From the NCBI GenBank assembly GCA_022614805.1, contig JAKEHY010000015.1:1-64000 (forward strand): a stretch of DNA of 64,000 nt. Direction: 5' to 3'. Shown here in pieces: positions 48,667-57,939 of this stretch. Made by a program: the position numbers and the translations under genes. The number at the start of each line of letters is the position of its first letter. Within the stretch, counting starts at the first letter, position 1. The notes below the pieces were generated by a model. The model ran no database searches. It saw only the letters and a program-made list of their open reading frames with translations, and had not been told where the DNA came from. Source of the DNA: Candidatus Zixiibacteriota bacterium. GTDB lineage: Bacteria; Zixibacteria; MSB-5A5; DSPP01.

Positions 48667-49896
48667 TTAAAACGCCGAAATCACCAGCGAAAGGGAAAGG
48701 AAGGTCAAAATTGCCACGGTGGCGATGGTTACGTAGTTGACGAACTTTTTGTTGACGTAGTTCCCCATCACCTTCGGTTTGTTGATGATAATGACCATAA
48801 AGGCGAGCGTAAGCGGCAGCAAAATTCCGTTTAACACCTGCGACCAGTACATCACCTGAATCAAGGGCAGCCCCGGCACCACGACGGTCAAAACTCCCAG
48901 CAAAATCAAAAGAGAATACAGCCCGTAGAATTGCGGCGCTTCGGCAAAGGTTTTGTTGACCCCGTTTTCCCACCCCATCCCTTCGCACACCACGTAGGCG
49001 GTGGAAAGGGGAAGAATCGAGGCGGCGAAAAGAGAGGCGTTTAGAAGCCCGAACGAGAAAAGAAAGGCGGCATAGTCCCCGGCCAAAGGTCGCAAGGCTA
49101 AAGCCGCCTCTTCCGCCGATTCAATCCGTATGTTCTGCGGATGTAGGGTGGCGGCGCAGGCGATGACGATAAAAGCGGCCACCACCGAGACCACGATTGA
49201 ACCGGCGAGCACGTCAAGCCGGGAGAACTTCAGATGTTCGATTTTGACGTCCTTTTCCACAATCGCCGACTGTAAATAAAACTGCATCCAGGGTGCAATC
49301 GTGGTCCCCACCAGCGCGATGAGGATGCCGATTTCCCCCGGGTTGAAGCTCATTTGTGGAACGGCGAACCCGCGGGCGACTTCGCTCCAGTCTGGACGGG
49401 CCATAAAGCCGGTAACGATATAGGCGGCGTAAAACAGGGTGGCGACCAGAAAGATTTTTTCCACCGATTTGTAACTTCCCTTGACCGCCAAAAGCCAGAC
49501 CAAAACCCCCGCCACCGGCACGCTCCACTCCCGGCCGACGCGGAAAATCTCCAGGCTGGCGGCCACGCCGGCAAATTCCGCCACCGTGTTGGCATAGTTG
49601 GCCGCCACGAGGATGATGAGAAAGTAGAAGGTGATTTTAACGCCGAACTGCTCGCGAATCAAATCGGAAAGTCCCTTCCCCGTCACCACCCCCATCCGGG
49701 CGGACATTTCCTGAATTAAAATCAAAAGGAAAGTTATGGGAACAAACGACCAAAGGAATCGGTAGCCGAAATGCGCCCCGGCGATGGAGTAGGTGGTAAT
49801 CCCGCCGGCGTCGTTATCGACGTTGGAGGTGATGAACCCCGGTCCCAAGATGGCCAGAATGACGAATACCTGCCGCCAGCGGGAGAGAATCTTCAC
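48667..49896 (-). CDS. Nramp-family divalent metal transporter, non-canonical metal site
   Basis: A 409-residue transporter with about eleven helices. It begins like Nramp (ILGPGFITSNVDNDAGGITT) but the canonical DPGN of helix 1 reads DNDAG (27-31), and the MPH of helix 6 reads APW (GTTIAPWMQFYLQS). Absence of the Met is shared with Nramp-related magnesium transporters, so Mg2+ or another ion is possible (inference). Its ATG overlaps the stop of the DUF512 gene. A decayed copy of its last 39 codons lies at 45923-46042. Confidence 0.85.
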   Translation of the reverse strand: MKILSRWRQVFVILAILGPGFITSNVDNDAGGITTYSIAGAHFGYRFLWSFVPITFLLILIQEMSARMGVVTGKGLSDLIREQFGVKITFYFLIILVAANYANTVAEFAGVAASLEIFRVGREWSVPVAGVLVWLLAVKGSYKSVEKIFLVATLFYAAYIVTGFMARPDWSEVARGFAVPQMSFNPGEIGILIALVGTTIAPWMQFYLQSAIVEKDVKIEHLKFSRLDVLAGSIVVSVVAAFIVIACAATLHPQNIRIESAEEAALALRPLAGDYAAFLFSFGLLNASLFAASILPLSTAYVVCEGMGWENGVNKTFAEAPQFYGLYSLLILLGVLTVVVPGLPLIQVMYWSQVLNGILLPLTLAFMVIIINKPKVMGNYVNKKFVNYVTIATVAILTFLSLSLVISAF

Positions 49897-51227
49897 GCCG
49901 AAAAGTTAAACTGGGCTTTCAAATGCTTCCGTTTGCGGCCGGAGTTCTCCAAATTCAAAAGCGTATCCACCAAGGTCGGCTCCCCGACAATGACCGGCAG
50001 TCCCAAAATTTCCGAAAGCTCGGCGGGCGTCATCTCGTCCAAAAATACGCCGGAAAGATTGACGCAGTAAGGGGGGAGCAAAACCGCATCAAAATCCCGC
50101 CCCGCTTCCGAGATCCCGGCCAGCATATCCTCTCCAATCAACAGCCCGGCCACGGTCACGCCCGATCCAAAAAAACGGTTTTCCAGTCCCAGCACATCAA
50201 TTTCAGGATGGGACGCCCATTCCATTATTCTGTCCGCGCATTTTTTCAAGGTCGGGTAGGCCGAACGGCCGGTTACGACCAGATAGCGCTTCTTTGGGCC
50301 GATCCGGGAAAGCCTCCCAACGTGCGCCTCCGTATCGTCAAGAATGTGCCGAATCATTCCGATGCCGTTCTCCAACTGCGGAAAACCGTCATAATATTCC
50401 GCCGGGGGAACTTCCCGCCCAGCCAGCGTGAACCACTCGTCAGCGGCGTAAAGAAAATTTATTCCCCACTTGGCCCGGAATGCTTTTTGTCGATTCTCTA
50501 CGTAATCAACCATCGCTCCGGCATATTCGGCATCAACCGGACGCAAGGGCCTCAAGTGGCTGCGATATTGGGTCAGCCCCACCGGCACAATCGCCAAAGT
50601 CGGCACCATCGGATAGCAGGCCGCCAAATCGCTTATGGTTTTTTCCAGCTCCCGCCCGTCGTTGAAATCGGGGCACAACACCACTTGCGTGTGCTGCACG
50701 ATGCCGTGCGAAAAGAAAAGCTCCATCAATGGCCTCAATTCGGGCGCTTTGGGGTTTTCCAGAAACTCCTTGCGGAGCGCCTCGTTGGTGGTGTGGACGG
50801 AGACGTAAAGCGGCGAAAGGTGATATTCGATAATCCGTTCAATGTCGGACGGTTTTAGATTCGTGAGGGTGACGAACTGCCCGTAGAGAAACGAGAGCCG
50901 GTAGTCATCATCTTTGATGTACAAAGTCCTGCGCATCCGGCGGGGATTCTGGCGGACAAAGCAAAAATTGCAGTTGTTTTTGCAGGTAATGATTTTGTCC
51001 GCTTCCGGCACAATCCCCAGTTCTTCATCATAATCCTTCTCGATTTCGAAAAGCAGTTCTTCGCCGTTTTCCTTGCGAACCAGCACGTCCAATTCTTCGC
51101 CGGCGCTCTGAAAGCGCAGGTCCAAAAAGTCGTTGACAGCCCGCCGGTTGATGGAAACGAGCTCATCCCCGGCTGCCAACCCCAATTCGGTGGCGATGGA
51201 GGAGGGTTCGATTTGGCGAATTTTCAT
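49893..51227 (-). CDS. DUF512-family PDZ / radical-SAM-like protein
   Basis: A 444-residue protein: an N-terminal PDZ-like domain (about 1-65; GLAAGDELVSINRRAVNDFL), a Cys-x3-Cys-x2-Cys motif CKNNCNFC (Cys82, Cys86, Cys89) as in radical-SAM enzymes, followed by FVRQNPRRMRRTLYIKDDD and the DUF512 C-terminal domain (YPTLKKCADRIMEW). Function is unestablished, though the family is widespread in Firmicutes, Chloroflexi and FCB phyla. ATG 51227 is assumed. Overlap with the transporter gene (49893-49896) suggests co-translation. Confidence 0.9.
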   Translation of the reverse strand: MKIRQIEPSSIATELGLAAGDELVSINRRAVNDFLDLRFQSAGEELDVLVRKENGEELLFEIEKDYDEELGIVPEADKIITCKNNCNFCFVRQNPRRMRRTLYIKDDDYRLSFLYGQFVTLTNLKPSDIERIIEYHLSPLYVSVHTTNEALRKEFLENPKAPELRPLMELFFSHGIVQHTQVVLCPDFNDGRELEKTISDLAACYPMVPTLAIVPVGLTQYRSHLRPLRPVDAEYAGAMVDYVENRQKAFRAKWGINFLYAADEWFTLAGREVPPAEYYDGFPQLENGIGMIRHILDDTEAHVGRLSRIGPKKRYLVVTGRSAYPTLKKCADRIMEWASHPEIDVLGLENRFFGSGVTVAGLLIGEDMLAGISEAGRDFDAVLLPPYCVNLSGVFLDEMTPAELSEILGLPVIVGEPTLVDTLLNLENSGRKRKHLKAQFNFSA

Positions 51228-51602
51228 CTTTTTTTTCTCAAGAACGGGCGGGTTGCTCCGGCTCCGCCGGAGAAAAACCCGCCCCTACAAAAACCCTTCA
51301 CCAATGAATTCCGGCGTCCGTATGGACGACAACTGCACGGTGCAAAAATAAAAAGCCTTTCCTCCCGTAGCCGGCACTTCAGTGCCGGAACGATTAATTA
51401 CAAAAAACAACAAAGCGGGAGAAGGGAGTCGAACCCTCGACGTCAAGCTTGGGAAGCTTGCATTCTACCGCTGAATTACTCCCGCTTGCGGTTGAAAATT
51501 TAGTCTCTTTCAGGCCGTCTGTCAAGAAAAGCCCGTTTTCCATCCGCTAATAATTCTCCTCAATAAGCTCCCGGTTCTTTCCGAAACATTGAATGGAGGA
51601 AT
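51228..51602. other. Intergenic region with palindromic repeats and tRNA-Gly
   Basis: Contains a GGGCGGGTT/AACCCGCCC palindrome (51246-51284) with inner hairpin CTCCGGC/GCCGGAG, ending CCCCTACA; the half-element GTAGCCGGCACTTCAGTGCCGG (51367-51388); tRNA-Gly (51414-51485); and TGGAGGAAT before ATG 51603. Confidence 0.6.
51414..51485 (-). tRNA. tRNA-Gly (CCC)
   Basis: The minus strand folds as a 72-base cloverleaf: acceptor GCGGGAG with CTCCCGC, D arm ATTCAGCGGTAGAAT, anticodon stem CAAGC/GCTTG with loop TTCCCAA (anticodon CCC), T arm GAGGGTTCGACTCCCTT. It reads GGG glycine codons. CCA is not encoded. Confidence 0.93.
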
Positions 51603-52346
51603 ATGTCAACAAGAGCCGTTTGGGCGTTGGCGGGGGGATTGTTTTTTGCTGCGGCAGGCCGTTCCATAGCCGCTGGGCCGGAACTGCAGGTCAACGCCGA
51701 CGCCCGCAACCTCTTGCGCCAGCCGGACCGCTATTTCGACCGCCAGCGCCCTCCCAAGCCGATGAAGGAGAATGAAGCCGCTTTTACGGAAGGGCTTGTC
51801 CGCTGCCGGACGGAGGCGGACGCCCATGCCAACGTGAAATCGGGTCGCAAAAACCAGCCCTGCGTAGCCACCATCACGGTGGAAGCGGTTTCCGTTCTGG
51901 TGGGGGGGGATGTTTCCGTTTACATACCCTACCGCCCGGAATACGGCGACCGCGTGGACGGCCAGAGCTGGGAGGTATTAAAAGCACACGAGGAGGGGCA
52001 CGCCCAAATTTACCGGGAGGTTTTCGCCCGGGTGGCCCAGCCGATTGCCGACGCCGTTTTTGCCAAATGTCCGGAGGCTTTTAACATCTCCATTCCGGTT
52101 TGCACGGATGAGGAAATCCGTTCCCGGATGGACCAGCAGCTGGACGTTTTGCTGGATGCCTTGACCGCCGAGGCGGTCAGCAAAATCACGAGCGTTTTCC
52201 GGGAAGTGAACCAGGCCTACGACCGCGCCACCGACCATGGCCGACAGGGGGCAAATGGGGAAAAGCCGACCGTCGAAAACCAGTTTGCAGCCGCCCGCGA
52301 GGCGATTGAAAGCTTCCAACGCACCTATTCCCATCTCCAACCGTAG
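51603..52346 (+). CDS. Exported HExxH protein (DUF922-like), paralogue 1
   Basis: A 247-residue protein with a signal peptide (VWALAGGLFFAAAGRSIAA). It carries HEEGH (129-133) in LKAHEEGHAQIYREV, preceded by SVYIPYRPEYGDRVDG-W, the arrangement of the DUF922 family of putative zinc proteases. Cysteines at about 68, 87, 155 and 167 may form disulfides. The last third is helical and ends VENQFAAAREAIESF. TGGAGGAAT supports ATG 51603. It is followed after 13 bases by a diverged paralogue. Substrate is unknown and proteolysis is inferred only from HExxH. Confidence 0.72.
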   Translation: MSTRAVWALAGGLFFAAAGRSIAAGPELQVNADARNLLRQPDRYFDRQRPPKPMKENEAAFTEGLVRCRTEADAHANVKSGRKNQPCVATITVEAVSVLVGGDVSVYIPYRPEYGDRVDGQSWEVLKAHEEGHAQIYREVFARVAQPIADAVFAKCPEAFNISIPVCTDEEIRSRMDQQLDVLLDALTAEAVSKITSVFREVNQAYDRATDHGRQGANGEKPTVENQFAAAREAIESFQRTYSHLQP

Positions 52347-52359
52347 CAGAAATGGACGG

Positions 52360-53136
52360 ATGAAGAAGAGGCCAATCGGAGTTGCGCTCGGGTTTTTGAC
52401 TGCTTCCCTTGCTCTCATTCCGGGGGGCCTTCCAAAAGCGGCCGCCCAAGTTCCGGGACTGGTAATTTCAGGCATCCTAAGACAAAACCCCGATTTGGAA
52501 GCGGGGCAAACCTTCTCCAGTGCCCGGCGGTCGGAAGAAAGAACCGCCGCCACCGTCGACACCGTTTATTGTCGTTCGTACGCCCGTTTGAAAACCGGGC
52601 GGGCCGCTTGGAATGAAGGGAGTTCGGCCTGCACATTAGTCCTGACGGTGGATTCCATCTGGGTGACGGTGGAGAAATCAATAGGCATCCGGTTGCCTTC
52701 CGGGGAAGATTTGGATGGTCCGGAACGGGAGCACGCCAAGGAAATTCTCTCGGCCCACGAAGAGAGTCATTCCCTCCTGCACCGGCAGTTGTTTTTTCAA
52801 ACCGTGGGGTCGGTGGTGAAAGAAATTTTCAAAAGTTTTCCGCAACGAATTACGGTGATTCAAAAAAGCTGCCCAATGACGGGAGAACCGGCGGTTGAAA
52901 ACCGTTGGGACGCCTCTTTTTCCGCCGCTGCCCGGGTTTTGGAAAGGATTTTGGACGACTTCAACGGCAAGACGGCGGAACAAATCTCCAAAATCGACCG
53001 GGAAGCCGGAGAAGCGTATGACTTTGCCACCAACCATGGCCGACGGGGTTCAGACGGGGACTGGCCCTCGGTGGAAAATCAATTCCAAGCGGCCCGAGAA
53101 GCCATTCAAAACTTCAAGTTCCAAGCCCGGTACTAA
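52360..53136 (+). CDS. Exported HExxH protein (DUF922-like), paralogue 2
   Basis: A 258-residue protein from ATG 52360 with a signal peptide (IGVALGFLTASLALIPGGLP). HEESH (133-137) lies in LSAHEESHSLLHRQL, and cysteines at about 71 and 91 match positions in paralogue 1. The C-termini of both proteins share 'NHGRRGSDGDWPSVENQF' / 'DHGRQGANGEKPTVENQF' followed by AAREAI. Identity elsewhere is low, so the duplication is old. The frame is open back to 52237, but the extension overlaps the first gene and lacks protein features. Confidence 0.72.
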   Translation: MKKRPIGVALGFLTASLALIPGGLPKAAAQVPGLVISGILRQNPDLEAGQTFSSARRSEERTAATVDTVYCRSYARLKTGRAAWNEGSSACTLVLTVDSIWVTVEKSIGIRLPSGEDLDGPEREHAKEILSAHEESHSLLHRQLFFQTVGSVVKEIFKSFPQRITVIQKSCPMTGEPAVENRWDASFSAAARVLERILDDFNGKTAEQISKIDREAGEAYDFATNHGRRGSDGDWPSVENQFQAAREAIQNFKFQARY

Positions 53137-53146
53137 GACTCTGACA

Positions 53147-53196
53147 TCGTAGGCGGCATTTTAATGCCGCCGCCGGATTGAAAATCCGGCCTACGA
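53147..53196. repeat. TCGTAGG...CCTACGA double hairpin, copy 2
   Basis: Inverted ends TCGTAGG/CCTACGA enclose hairpins GGCGGCAT/ATGCCGCC and GCCGGATT/AATCCGGC. Its reverse complement matches 10934-10981 over almost the whole length. Confidence 0.75.
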
Positions 53197-53262
53197 CCGC
53201 ACATGGTTTTCCAGAGAAAGAAAACCCTCGTTTTCACTTTCTCATCACAAACAACCCTCTTT

Positions 53263-53325
53263 TTCCCTCCCCTTGAGGGGAGAGAGTGAAGCCCTTGCCA
53301 GAGGCAAGGGCTGAAGGGTGAGGTC
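53263..53325 (+). repeat. Composite CCCTCCCC repeat, copy 2
   Basis: Constant hairpin CCCTCCCC-TTGA-GGGGAG, second stem AGCCCTTGCC-AGA-GGCAAGGGCT, then tail GAAGGGTGAGGTC. Confidence 0.65.
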
Positions 53326-53467
53326 AAAGCCTCCCCCCGACCGATTTCCATTTTGCTAAACGCTTTTCGTTCCTTAAATTACCGGTGAGGGATATGATTG
53401 GTCTTGAAATCTCGATAGAAAACGGATGGATATGCTGCTTGTGACTTCTTCGCTTGCAGTTTGACTA

Positions 53468-55714
53468 ATGGCCGACGCGATAGACTCCCGCTATAAGATT
53501 TTAGAAAAACTGGGGGAAGGGGGTGTGGGGGAGGTGTATCTGGCGGAAGACACGGTTCTGGGGCGCAAGGTGGCGCTAAAGAAACTTTCCTCCGGTCGGA
53601 TTTCCGACCCGGATTCCCGGCGACGTTTTATCCAGGAAGCCAAAGCCCAGGCACTTTTGAACCATCCCAACATCGCCACCTTTTTCGAGGTGGGGGAAAC
53701 GCCGGAAGAGGTCTTCATCGTTATGGAATACGTCGAAGGCCGCCTGCTCTCGCAGCTGGTTACGGATGGAAAACTTTCCCTGTCGGACGTGCTCGATTTG
53801 GCCATCCAAATCGGGGAAGGGCTTTTGGCCGCTCACGAGGTCGGAATCGTGCATCGGGACATCAAGCCGGCCAACGTCCTGGTCACCTCCCGCGGGTCGG
53901 TCAAGTTGACCGACTTCGGCCTCGCGAAATGGAGCGAGGCCGGAGGCCTCACTCAAACCGGCGTCCGGGTCGGCACCGCCCACTATATGTCCCCCGAACA
54001 GGTGGAAGGAAAAAACGTCGACCACCGTTCGGATATCTTTTCTTTTGGGGCCGTCTTATACGAGTTGTTGACCTCCAAGAAACCGTTTGACGGAGAGAGT
54101 GAGACAGCCATCTTTTACGAAGTTTTGAACGTCACTCCGCAACCCCTGGCCCGCTACGCTCGAGGCATCCCGCCGGAACTGGAGCGGGTGGTGCAGAAAT
54201 GTTTGGCCAAAGACTCCGAGCTGCGCTACCAGCGAATGGATGACCTGTTGGCCGACCTGCGGATGCTTAAAAAAAACGTAAAGGCCGGACGGCTCGGCGG
54301 GGAAGTTTCGGAGGGGGTACTGGTCCCCTCGATTGCCGTTCTGCCGTTCACCAATTTGAGCCCCGAACCGGAAAACGAATATTTCAGCGACGGATTGACG
54401 GACGAAATCATCACCAATTTGACCAAAATCCGCACCTTGAAGGTAATTTCCAGAACCTCGGCCATGCGCTACAAAAAAACGGCCAAGTCGCTGCGGCAGA
54501 TTGCCGCCGAGCTTTCCGTTCAATACATCCTTGAAGGGAGCGTGCGAAAGTACGGCGACCACCTGCGCATCACCGCCCAACTGGTTGATGCCTTTCAGGA
54601 CGCCCACCTTTGGGCCGAAACCTTTCGCGGCACGGTGGAAGACCTGTTCGACATTCAGGAAAAAGTGGCCGAGGAGATTGCCAGTCACCTCCGGCTACAT
54701 CTTACTCCGGGGGAAAACAGGGAGCTAAAAAAGCGCTATACCGAAAATACGGAGGCGTATCAGCTATATCTCCAGGGCCGCTTCCAATGGAACAAGCGGA
54801 CGGTGGAAGGTTTCAACAAAGCCATCGAGCTTTTTTCAAAAGCCTTGCAAATAGACCCCCGCTTTGCGCCGGCCTACGCTGGACTGGCAGACTCGTACGC
54901 CTTGCTTGGAGAAACGAGTTTGTATGCCCGCCATCCCCACGACGTTTATCCCAAAGCGAGGGAAGCGGCCGCCCGGGCTTTGGAGCTGGACGACCGGCTG
55001 GCGGAAGCCCACACCTCTATGGGCTATTTAAAAATGAACGACTATGACTGGACGGGCGCGGAGGAGGAGTTCAAAAAAGCGATTGAATTGAACCCGAATT
55101 ACGCTACCACCTACCACTGGTACAGCAGCTTGTTGTCGGCGACCGGGCGGAACGAGGAGGCCCTTGTCACAATGGAAAAGGCCCGGAATTTGGACCCCAT
55201 CTCGCTGCCCATACAGACCGATATGGGGCTGGCCTATTATTTTGCCCGCCAGTACGACCGGGCCATCGAGCAGTACAAAAGGGCCCTCGATTTGGACCCC
55301 AATTTTACCCGCGCCTACATAAGTTTAAGCTCGGCTTTGGCCCTCTCGGGCAGGTATGAAGAAGCCCTGGCCGAAGTCCAAAAAGCGATTGAAAGGACCG
55401 GCGACCGCAGCCGGGCGGCCTATCTGGGGCGGGTTTACGCCCGGATGGGGGAACGAAAAAAAGCGCTGGAGGCGATAGAAGAGGTAAAGGAGATTGCCAA
55501 AGGCCGCCTCGTTTCCCCCCATTCCATTGCCCTGGTCTATGCGGCGCTTGGAGAAAAAGATTTGGCCTTCGAATGGCTGAATAAATCCTGGGAGGAGGGG
55601 TACGTGGAGCTTTACACGCTGAAGGTTGACCCCTGGTTGGATTCGTTGCGGGACGACCCCCGCTTTCAGGAACTGCTTGACCGCGCCCGCTTGAAGGCCC
55701 GTTTAAAAAAATGA
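53468..55714 (+). CDS. Ser/Thr protein kinase with TolB-like and TPR regions (A)
   Basis: A 748-residue protein of the same plan as the kinase at 18988. Kinase domain (about 8-270): GEGGVGEVYLAED, Lys38, HRDIKPANVL, KLTDFGLAKW, and GTAHYMSPEQVEG in the activation segment. TolB/FlgO-like module (about 288-420): AVLPFTNLSPEPENEYFSDG, TDEIITNLTKIRTL. The rest is about eight TPRs. It is an RD-type kinase with all catalytic residues. Its TGA overlaps the ATG of kinase B (ATGA), so the two should be made together. No transmembrane helix is evident. Confidence 0.93.
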   Translation: MADAIDSRYKILEKLGEGGVGEVYLAEDTVLGRKVALKKLSSGRISDPDSRRRFIQEAKAQALLNHPNIATFFEVGETPEEVFIVMEYVEGRLLSQLVTDGKLSLSDVLDLAIQIGEGLLAAHEVGIVHRDIKPANVLVTSRGSVKLTDFGLAKWSEAGGLTQTGVRVGTAHYMSPEQVEGKNVDHRSDIFSFGAVLYELLTSKKPFDGESETAIFYEVLNVTPQPLARYARGIPPELERVVQKCLAKDSELRYQRMDDLLADLRMLKKNVKAGRLGGEVSEGVLVPSIAVLPFTNLSPEPENEYFSDGLTDEIITNLTKIRTLKVISRTSAMRYKKTAKSLRQIAAELSVQYILEGSVRKYGDHLRITAQLVDAFQDAHLWAETFRGTVEDLFDIQEKVAEEIASHLRLHLTPGENRELKKRYTENTEAYQLYLQGRFQWNKRTVEGFNKAIELFSKALQIDPRFAPAYAGLADSYALLGETSLYARHPHDVYPKAREAAARALELDDRLAEAHTSMGYLKMNDYDWTGAEEEFKKAIELNPNYATTYHWYSSLLSATGRNEEALVTMEKARNLDPISLPIQTDMGLAYYFARQYDRAIEQYKRALDLDPNFTRAYISLSSALALSGRYEEALAEVQKAIERTGDRSRAAYLGRVYARMGERKKALEAIEEVKEIAKGRLVSPHSIALVYAALGEKDLAFEWLNKSWEEGYVELYTLKVDPWLDSLRDDPRFQELLDRARLKARLKK

Positions 55715-57939
55715 TCGGCCAAACCGTTTCGCATTACAAAATTTTAGACAAGTTAGGCGAGGGGGGAATGGGGGTCGTTTACAAAGCCCAGGATTTGCGA
55801 CTGGACCGTTTGGTCGCTTTAAAATTCCTTCCCGCCCATCTCGGAGCCGAAGAGGAGCAGAAGAAGCGCTTCTTTCAAGAAGCCAAGGCCGCCTCGGCTT
55901 TGGACCATCCCAATGTCTGCACGGTGTATGAAATCGACCAGACCTCATCGGGGCAGATTTTCATCTGTATGGCTTACTACGAAGGGGAGCCGCTCAACAA
56001 GAAAATAGAAAAAGGCCCTTTAAAACTGGAAGAAGCGGTTTCCATCGCTCTCCAAATTGCCCGGGGGCTGGCCAAAGCCCACCGGCAGGGGATTGTCCAT
56101 CGGGACATCAAGTCCGGCAACGTGGTGATAACCGCCGACGGCATCGCTAAAATCGTGGATTTCGGTCTGGCCAAGCTGATGGGAAAAAACGCCACAGCCA
56201 AAACGAAAACGGTGGGCACCCCCAATTATATCTCCCCCGAGCAGCTCCGGGGGGAAACGGTTGACCACCGGGCCGATTTATGGTCGCTGGGAGTAGTGCT
56301 GTACGAAATGTTAACGGGACAAAAACCATTCAAGGGGGAATACGAACAGGCGGTTATGTACGCCGTTCTCAACGAGACCCCCGCTGCCGTAAGTTCGCTG
56401 CGGAAAGAAATCCCCTTTGCTCTGGATAACGTCGTCGCCAAGTGTTTGCAAAAAAATCCGCTCGCGCGGTATCAAAAAGCCGAGGATTTGATTGAGGACT
56501 TAAAACGCTCCGAGACGGCCCTGGCCGACAAACAGCCGGCCGCTCGTTCGGCAGCGAAGTCGATTGCCGTTTTGCCCTTCGACAACATCAGCCCCGATGC
56601 GGAAAACGAATACTTCAGCGACGGGCTGACCGAAGAAATCATCACGCATCTTTCCAAAATCCGGAGCCTTTTGGTGATTTCCCGAACCTCCATTATGCGC
56701 TACAAAGGGGTAAAAAAACCCCTGCGGGAGATTGCCGCCGAGCTGGGGGTTCAATACGTTTTGGAGGGAAGCGTCCGCAAGCAAGGCAACGACCTGCGGA
56801 TAACCGCCCAGCTCATCGACGCCAGCCGGGACGCCCACCTCTGGGCGGAAAAGTACGGAGGGAAACTGGAAGACGTGTTTGCGATTCAGGAAAAAGTGGC
56901 CGGCCAGATTGTGGATGCGCTGAAACTCACCCTTTCTCCCCAAGAACAAAAAATATTGGAGAAACGCCAGACGGAAAATACGGAGGCCTATGAGCTTTAT
57001 CTAAAGGGGCGCTTCTGGTGGAACAAACGTACGGAAGAGGGGATGAAGCGGGGGATTGCCTTCTTTAATCAGGCCATCGAAAAGGACCCGGGCTACGCCT
57101 TGGCCTATGTGGGGCTGGCCGATGCCCATATTCTTTTGGGGGTTTACGGACATCATCCCTTTCGAGAAGTAATGCCAAAGGCCGAAAAGGCGGCCTTGAA
57201 GGCTTTGGAACTGGATTCCGCCTCGGCGGAAGCCCACGCCTCGCTGGCTCACTTCAAAATGCTTTACGAGTGGGATTGGGCCGGCGGGGAACAAATGTTT
57301 CAGCGGGCCATCGAGTTGAATCCTAACTATGCTCCCGCCCACCTGTGGTACAGCCTGACCCTTTCGGCCATGGGAAAACTGGATGAGGCCTTCATTGAAA
57401 TCGAACGGGCCCGGGAACTGGATCCACTCTCCTTGATTATTAACACGGATGTGGGAATGGTGCATTATGAGGCGCGGAGGTACGATCAAGCTTTTGAGGA
57501 ATGTCGCAAGACCATGGAAATTGACCCCAACTTCTATGTGGTTAACCTGCTGCTTGGAAGAACGCACCTGCAGGCTGGAAATTTTGAAGAGGCCGTGGCT
57601 GAACTTCGCAAGGCCCTGGCGCTTTCGCACGAAAGTACCCTCGTTCTGGCTACTTTGGGATACGCGTATGCGCGCGCCGGCAAGAAATCGGAGGCGTTGG
57701 AAGTGCTGAAACGATTGGAAGAGATTTCCCGGGAGCGCTATGTTGCTCCCAACACCCGGGCTATTCTATATGTGGGTCTCGGTGAGACGGAACTGGCGTT
57801 TGAGTGGTTGCAAAAGGCCTTTGAAGAACGCAGCTTATGGGCCGCCCATACGCCTCTTGCCATCGATCCCATCTTGGACCCGCTGCGTTCCGACCCACGG
57901 TTTTCCGCTCTGTTACGAAAAGCCGGCTTGGAGAAGTAG
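55711..57939 (+). CDS. Ser/Thr protein kinase with TolB-like and TPR regions (B)
   Basis: A 742-residue paralogue of kinase A. Catalytic features are GEGGMGVVYKAQD, Lys38, HRDIKSGNVV, KIVDFGLAKL and GTPNYISPEQLRG. The TolB/FlgO-like module (SIAVLPFDNISPDAENEYF, LTEEIITHLSKIRSL) and TPR array align with kinase A without large gaps, pointing to tandem duplication. The two activation segments differ, so substrates or regulation may differ. Transcription probably begins upstream of kinase A. Confidence 0.93.
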   Translation: MIGQTVSHYKILDKLGEGGMGVVYKAQDLRLDRLVALKFLPAHLGAEEEQKKRFFQEAKAASALDHPNVCTVYEIDQTSSGQIFICMAYYEGEPLNKKIEKGPLKLEEAVSIALQIARGLAKAHRQGIVHRDIKSGNVVITADGIAKIVDFGLAKLMGKNATAKTKTVGTPNYISPEQLRGETVDHRADLWSLGVVLYEMLTGQKPFKGEYEQAVMYAVLNETPAAVSSLRKEIPFALDNVVAKCLQKNPLARYQKAEDLIEDLKRSETALADKQPAARSAAKSIAVLPFDNISPDAENEYFSDGLTEEIITHLSKIRSLLVISRTSIMRYKGVKKPLREIAAELGVQYVLEGSVRKQGNDLRITAQLIDASRDAHLWAEKYGGKLEDVFAIQEKVAGQIVDALKLTLSPQEQKILEKRQTENTEAYELYLKGRFWWNKRTEEGMKRGIAFFNQAIEKDPGYALAYVGLADAHILLGVYGHHPFREVMPKAEKAALKALELDSASAEAHASLAHFKMLYEWDWAGGEQMFQRAIELNPNYAPAHLWYSLTLSAMGKLDEAFIEIERARELDPLSLIINTDVGMVHYEARRYDQAFEECRKTMEIDPNFYVVNLLLGRTHLQAGNFEEAVAELRKALALSHESTLVLATLGYAYARAGKKSEALEVLKRLEEISRERYVAPNTRAILYVGLGETELAFEWLQKAFEERSLWAAHTPLAIDPILDPLRSDPRFSALLRKAGLEK

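Follow-up and report, generated by a model that had tools for sequence, protein, structure and literature searches.

Two adjacent, putatively exported HExxH proteins of a Candidatus Zixiibacteriota bacterium appear to form a divergent branch of the DUF922 superfamily

The closest described relatives of the two proteins discussed here belong to DUF922 (PF06037). On the basis of HExxH in its members, Lenart et al. predicted this family to be zincin-like metalloproteases, with a fold-recognition score of -7.4 that is weak or modest (PMC3650047). A second paper describes a DUF922 protein that was increased in the outer-membrane vesicles of a mutant, and quotes its UniProt label as 'DUF922 domain-containing Zn-dependent protease' (PMC11788153). 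A literature search on DUF922 found no experimental protease assay.

The window analysed here is a stretch of 64,000 nucleotides from contig JAKEHY010000015.1. A first-pass annotation had described two neighbouring exported HExxH paralogues from a little-known family, and this description is borne out, with HEEGH in the first protein (A) and HEESH in the second (B). The features are as follows.

51603..52346, + strand: gene A, predicted exported DUF922-like HExxH protein of 247 aa (ORF; DUF922 at 23.7 bits; profile-profile match)
51603..51674, + strand: likely signal peptide of A, residues 1-24, cleaved between AA and GP (by eye)
51987..52001, + strand: HEEGH of A, residues 129-133, within predicted helix 123-154
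52218..52307, + strand: C-terminal block of A, YDRATDHGR...AREAI, residues 206-235, which holds the DUF922 signature YDxxTxHG
52360..53136, + strand: gene B, diverged paralogue of A, 258 aa, without a Pfam or NCBIfam match of its own
52360..52446, + strand: likely signal peptide of B, residues 1-29, cleaved between AAA and Q (by eye)
52756..52770, + strand: HEESH of B, residues 133-137 (position 4 is variable in PF06037 members)
53017..53106, + strand: C-terminal block of B, YDFATNHGR...AREAI, residues 220-249

The listed open reading frame of B opens at 52237, inside A, which is too early. The natural start is 52360, where MKKRPIG is followed by a signal-peptide-like N-terminus, and with this correction the two gene calls are regarded as established. 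The signal peptides assigned earlier to both proteins are retained as putative, the N-termini being signal-peptide-like by eye. GGAGGA lies just 5′ of the ATG of A. The genes are adjacent on the same strand with 13 bp between them, and are likely to be on one transcript. Directly upstream of A on the opposite strand is a tRNA-Gly(ccc) (window 51413-51486, −). The locus is adjoined by a gene for a PDZ, radical-SAM-like and DUF512 protein (window 49893-51227, −), the end of which is overlapped by an Nramp-family transporter gene.

A and B are clearly paralogues, with 30% identity across 224 columns (BLASTP, E = 2e-32). Cysteines are found at positions 68, 87, 156 and 167 of A and at 71, 91 and 171 of B, so that the matching cysteines noted in the first-pass annotation hold for three of the four, but not for Cys156 of A, which has no counterpart in B. 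The C-terminal tails read DHGRQGANGEKPTVENQFAAAREAI in A and NHGRRGSDGDWPSVENQFQAAREAI in B. Amino acid-changing difference between A and B is much lower in the C-terminal block (pN 0.17) than in the body (pN 0.51), while silent sites are near saturation in both (pS 0.66 in the block and 0.72 in the body). The shared block is thus as real as was claimed, and because pN is low where pS is almost saturated, it is held by selection. Recent gene conversion was considered as a source of the likeness and is rejected, since the silent sites of the block are about as diverged as those elsewhere. Gene A is itself under strong purifying selection: its body compared with the corresponding gene of a sister species gives dN 0.084, dS 0.87 and dN/dS about 0.10.

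Searches with both full sequences, which had been suggested as a check, gave a family for A only. In Pfam, DUF922 was the sole family matched by A (23.7 bits, E = 5.8e-5, against a cut-off of 27 bits) and by the sister-species protein (21.0 bits, again under the cut-off), while B had no Pfam match. Neither A nor B matched in a scan of NCBIfam. Since A is below the Pfam cut-off and B is without a match, they are filed as divergent relatives of PF06037 and not as members.

Two sets of family sequences were assembled for comparison. Set 1 consists of 75 DUF922-type domains, from the 80 loci listed among at least 117 stretches matching a DNA pattern for the peptide HEQGHFDI; five of the 80 open reading frames ended less than 60 residues beyond the motif, and were left out. 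We take this peptide to be typical of DUF922, and as set 1 was picked by it, conservation of HEQGHFDI within the set means nothing. Of ten domains scanned with Pfam, eight were over the cut-off, the exceptions being L048 (20.5 bits) and L060 (24.4 bits). These two DUF922-like proteins (L048 2957-3607, +; L060 905-1579, +) are rich in cysteine and, like A, have a long inter-helix region; within the HEQGHFDI set it is L060 that the A/B profile matches best. Set 2 consists of 21 loci that were found by searching whole genomes with the PF06037 profile. It was reduced from 24 by removal of L151, in which no HExxH plus block was found, and of L155 and L160, which are of the HEQGHFDI type. For extraction, set 2 loci had to hold HE..H and a loose form of the C-terminal block.

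A profile made from A, B and the sister protein was aligned to each set with hhalign, using 100 column shuffles as control. Against set 2 it gave a probability of 94.9% and a score of 55.0 (shuffle maximum 18.0), in an alignment that spans Cys87, the Pro109 strand and HExxH, and extends up to THG; with the HExxH region masked the score was still 36.1, compared to 15.8 for shuffles. Against set 1 the score was 46.5 (shuffle maximum 16.4), and 31.1 against 17.1 with HExxH masked, the match then being the C-terminal block. A alone scored 46.1 against set 2 (shuffle maximum 17.5). B alone aligns poorly: against set 2 it gave a probability of 18.8% and a score of 27.6 (shuffle maximum 18.2), with its HExxH misplaced relative to that of the family, and against set 1 a probability of 6.5% and a score of 22.3, this last value being without a shuffle control. 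The place of B in DUF922 therefore rests on its homology to A. E-values from very small hmmsearch sets were left out of the evidence. Homology to DUF922 at the level of profiles is considered established, and from these sequence comparisons A and B appear to be a divergent and apparently genus-restricted branch of the DUF922 (PF06037) superfamily. They are probably exported, divergent relatives of a family whose members are predicted to be zinc-dependent proteases.

The C-terminal block had been proposed to define a new family or a recognition element. This proposal does not survive the comparison, in which the core of the block corresponds to the C-terminal signature of DUF922, aromatic-Asp-x-x-Thr-x-His-Gly. 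In set 2, where a loose form of the block was required beforehand, the aromatic residue (Tyr or Phe) is present in 20/21, Asp in 21/21, Thr in 18/21 (Ser in the other three), His in 18/21 and Gly in 21/21. In set 1, Tyr is found in 75/75 and Asp in 72/75 (Glu in two and Asn in one), followed by Gln in 74/75 and Trp in 67/75, while the His position is occupied by His, Phe, Tyr or Asn. YDRATDHG in A and YDFATNHG in B both fit aromatic-Asp-x-x-Thr/Ser-x-His-Gly. A and B stand apart in their spacing and in their tail, HGR.G..G..P..ENQF..AREAI.

The residues H, E and H of HExxH are present in all 21 sequences of set 2, and are retained in A, B and the sister gene. PF06037 members have G, E, Q, R, N, K or T at position 4 of the motif, so that the Ser in HEESH of B is unremarkable. 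B also retains the H, E, H, Y, D, T, H, G and Q of the family positions. The suggestion that B might be an inactive-like partner is thus unsupported, because the near-invariant residues of the family are all kept and HEESH is within normal variation. Cysteines occur in set 2 in the strand region (16/20) and in the inter-helix loop (14/19). Cys87 of A is aligned by hhalign to the strand-region cysteine and B has Cys91; Cys167 of A is opposite the inter-helix cysteine by position only, and B has Cys171. By conservation, the strongest candidate third metal ligand is the near-invariant Asp of the YD pair (21/21 and 72/75 in the two sets). The THG histidine was also considered, and is disfavoured because many HEQGHFDI-type members have Phe, Tyr or Asn there.

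Structure predictions of A were made twice. The first, from three sequences, had a pLDDT of 59.8 and a best match of Z 6.5, and was discarded. The second used alignment A2, composed of 36 of the 75 domains of set 1 together with A, the sister protein, B and P0004; 38 of its 40 rows match DUF922 at E ≤ 0.01. This model has a mean pLDDT of 76.8 and a pTM of 0.69. Its block covers the end of helix 169-210, a loop and the last helix, 224-241. No Foldseek match was found at E ≤ 0.001 and no solved relative, nor any match in BFVD at E ≤ 0.001; the best structural match (VIA Z 6.0) was to an unrelated translocon subunit, and there was no zincin among the 50 structure matches listed. Sequence searches of the PDB found no credible relative.

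Genes of the A/B type occur in 2 of 132 genomes of the phylum, both in the host genus. PF06037 itself is over its cut-off in one of these 132 genomes, in 16 of 369 genomes of one class and in 6 of 294 of another phylum. One genome from the host's own class has a single DUF922 protein over the cut-off, which adjoins a DUF2589 protein (L009 1459-1959, −, and 739-1398, −). A plasmid tblastn search found nothing for A, and for a DUF922 protein only one match (E 0.07), which is weak and not credible. Scans of viral contigs gave three pattern matches with A, none confirmed as a relative, and none with the DNA motif, while a first scan of genome contigs matched 94 stretches, of which none was confirmed. 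Two weak matches, with E of 6.5e-4 and 0.0097, came from a profile search that covered 297 genomes of another group. The former lies antisense to an apparent sensor-kinase gene, and E 6.5e-4 is taken as the chance level of that search. The A/B profile also gave one match (E 0.07) in 18 DUF922-bearing genomes; it has two internal stops and was disregarded.

The second genome with such a gene is that of a sister species in the same genus (99% complete). In the same neighbourhood, between the DUF512 gene and the kinases described below, it has one gene, and no second A/B-type match was found in the genome. The idea of A and B as an obligate pair, for which co-occurrence had been the proposed check, is therefore contradicted. 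The window DNA from 52307 to 53344 has no counterpart in the sister species. The sister gene has an A-like body and a B-like tail: it is B-like at 21 of the last 30 informative sites, against 30 of the 276 before them, and none of 2000 permutations gave a split as good. With so short a tail, and with silent sites that are almost saturated, the join can be called likely but not proven. B is more distant from the sister body (pS 0.69) than A is (pS 0.52), which disfavours an origin of B after the species split. The value for A is similar to those of neighbouring genes, which have a pS between the species of 0.51-0.55 in three of four, and 0.67 in the second kinase. The simplest reading of these sequences is an old duplication, with B later lost in the sister species by recombination between the 3′ ends. 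The comparison would then provide a natural loss of one of two paralogues, joined in the common block.

Two coupled Ser/Thr kinase genes were reported to follow the pair, and this is correct. They start at 53468 and 55711, overlap by 4 bp, and both encode kinase-TPR proteins. The sister species has the two kinase genes, and the neighbouring genes as well, in the same order. There is no sign of a functional link to A and B: the first starts 331 bp past B, and the two are among 16 kinase domains found in the genome at E ≤ 1e-10. The gap between B and the kinases contains a dispersed palindromic repeat (window 53145-53196), for which a 70-base query gave 23 genome matches including itself at E ≤ 0.001, to one or both arms of a 50-base unit. 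The second kinase (window 55711-57939 against L004:10242-12461) has a pN between species of 0.21, far higher than that of the first kinase (0.07) and of two neighbouring genes (0.05), as if it had been partly exchanged with another paralogue.

Our best guess from sequence is that A is an exported zinc-dependent peptidase or a descendant of one, and the same is proposed with less certainty for B. Both would be exported by Sec, followed by signal cleavage, and each mature protein would fold into a small domain with a long β-hairpin and helices. Zinc would be held by the two histidines of HExxH, and the glutamate would activate water for peptide hydrolysis. The Asp of YDxxTxHG, where the second long helix ends, may be the third metal ligand or an active-site residue; the THG loop would cap the active site, and the conserved cysteines may tie the hairpin to the inter-helix loop. 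B would be an old duplicate of A that predates the split from the sister species, which would then have lost it by recombination through the common 3′ ends of the two genes.

A and B could share DUF922 ancestry and yet not be proteases, with the HExxH helix and YDxxTxHG serving an envelope binding protein or chaperone as a core that binds metal or is purely structural. The model matched no solved zincin fold, the literature found on DUF922 shows no activity, and B has drifted far from A in the body. We nevertheless consider this unlikely, given that H, E and H are invariant in set 2, whose selection did not involve the DNA motif, and that A, B and the sister gene all keep them. The Glu is a catalytic and not a structural need, and is also invariant in set 2, an argument that is weakened by the requirement for HE..H in that set. 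A rather speculative proposal, which we doubt, is that DUF922 and the A/B branch are HExxH enzymes with a fold unlike solved structures, made of a long β-hairpin and a three-helix bundle, with the metal on HExxH and the YDxxTxHG Asp. If so, A and B would be a small and easily made pair for establishing the chemistry of the whole family.

That the two genes encode an enzyme and a dedicated partner, either an inhibitor or a decoy paralogue, is suggested by their close spacing on one strand and likely common transcript, and by the strong divergence of B, including its lack of a match to Cys156. It seems improbable given the single gene in a sister genome that is 99% complete, the retention in B of every near-invariant family residue, and the freedom of position 4 of HExxH in DUF922. 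Finally, A is below threshold in Pfam and B has no score, and short HMM matches with a similar per-genome E-value do occur by chance, as with the antisense frame at 6.5e-4; the likeness of HExxH and tail could then be coincidence, with no relation to DUF922. Because HExxH, YDxxTxHG and the Cys/Pro strand region align in order and far above shuffles, also when HExxH is masked, coincidence is highly improbable. The preferred reading is still that of divergent DUF922 relatives. It places two unannotated and presumably exported proteins in a widespread family with almost no literature, and accounts for their conserved tail block as a signature of that family. The import would be greater if the metal site and activity of DUF922, both predicted, were established.

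Compared with known systems, A and B share HExxH with the zincin-like metalloproteases (Peptidase_MA clan), though no zincin was among the structure matches listed for the model of A. DUF922 domains of the HEQGHFDI type (75 domains) occur in Bacteroidota, Planctomycetes, Acidobacteria and others, and are 12-19% identical to A in aligned rows. They have in common with A and B the pattern YD..T.H[S/G], the Gln, and a final helix, Q..W...I, that resembles ENQF..AREAI. In contrast, A and B lack the N-terminal L.W.DF and SW blocks of this type, and differ in the Asp and Ile after HExxH. PF06037 has the same layout as A and B, namely HExxH in a helix, a C...P strand region, an inter-helix Cys and aromatic-Asp-x-x-Thr-x-His-Gly near the C-terminus. 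A and B differ from it in lacking W-x-x-Y/M-x-x-A-L before HExxH, in a longer inter-helix region, and in an extra C-terminal VENQF..AREAI helix and HGR.G..G..P spacing, which are absent from the 21 PF06037 loci. They also differ in being confined to one genus among the 132 genomes of the phylum, with A below the cut-off and B undetected. Overall, the first-pass annotation was right about the exported HExxH paralogues and the selected block; a new family is not what the block defines, an inactive partner is unsupported, and a required pair is contradicted. The observation was accurate and its explanation is ordinary: A and B represent a divergent branch of DUF922 that is restricted to this lineage, and that has two genes here but a single one in the sister species.
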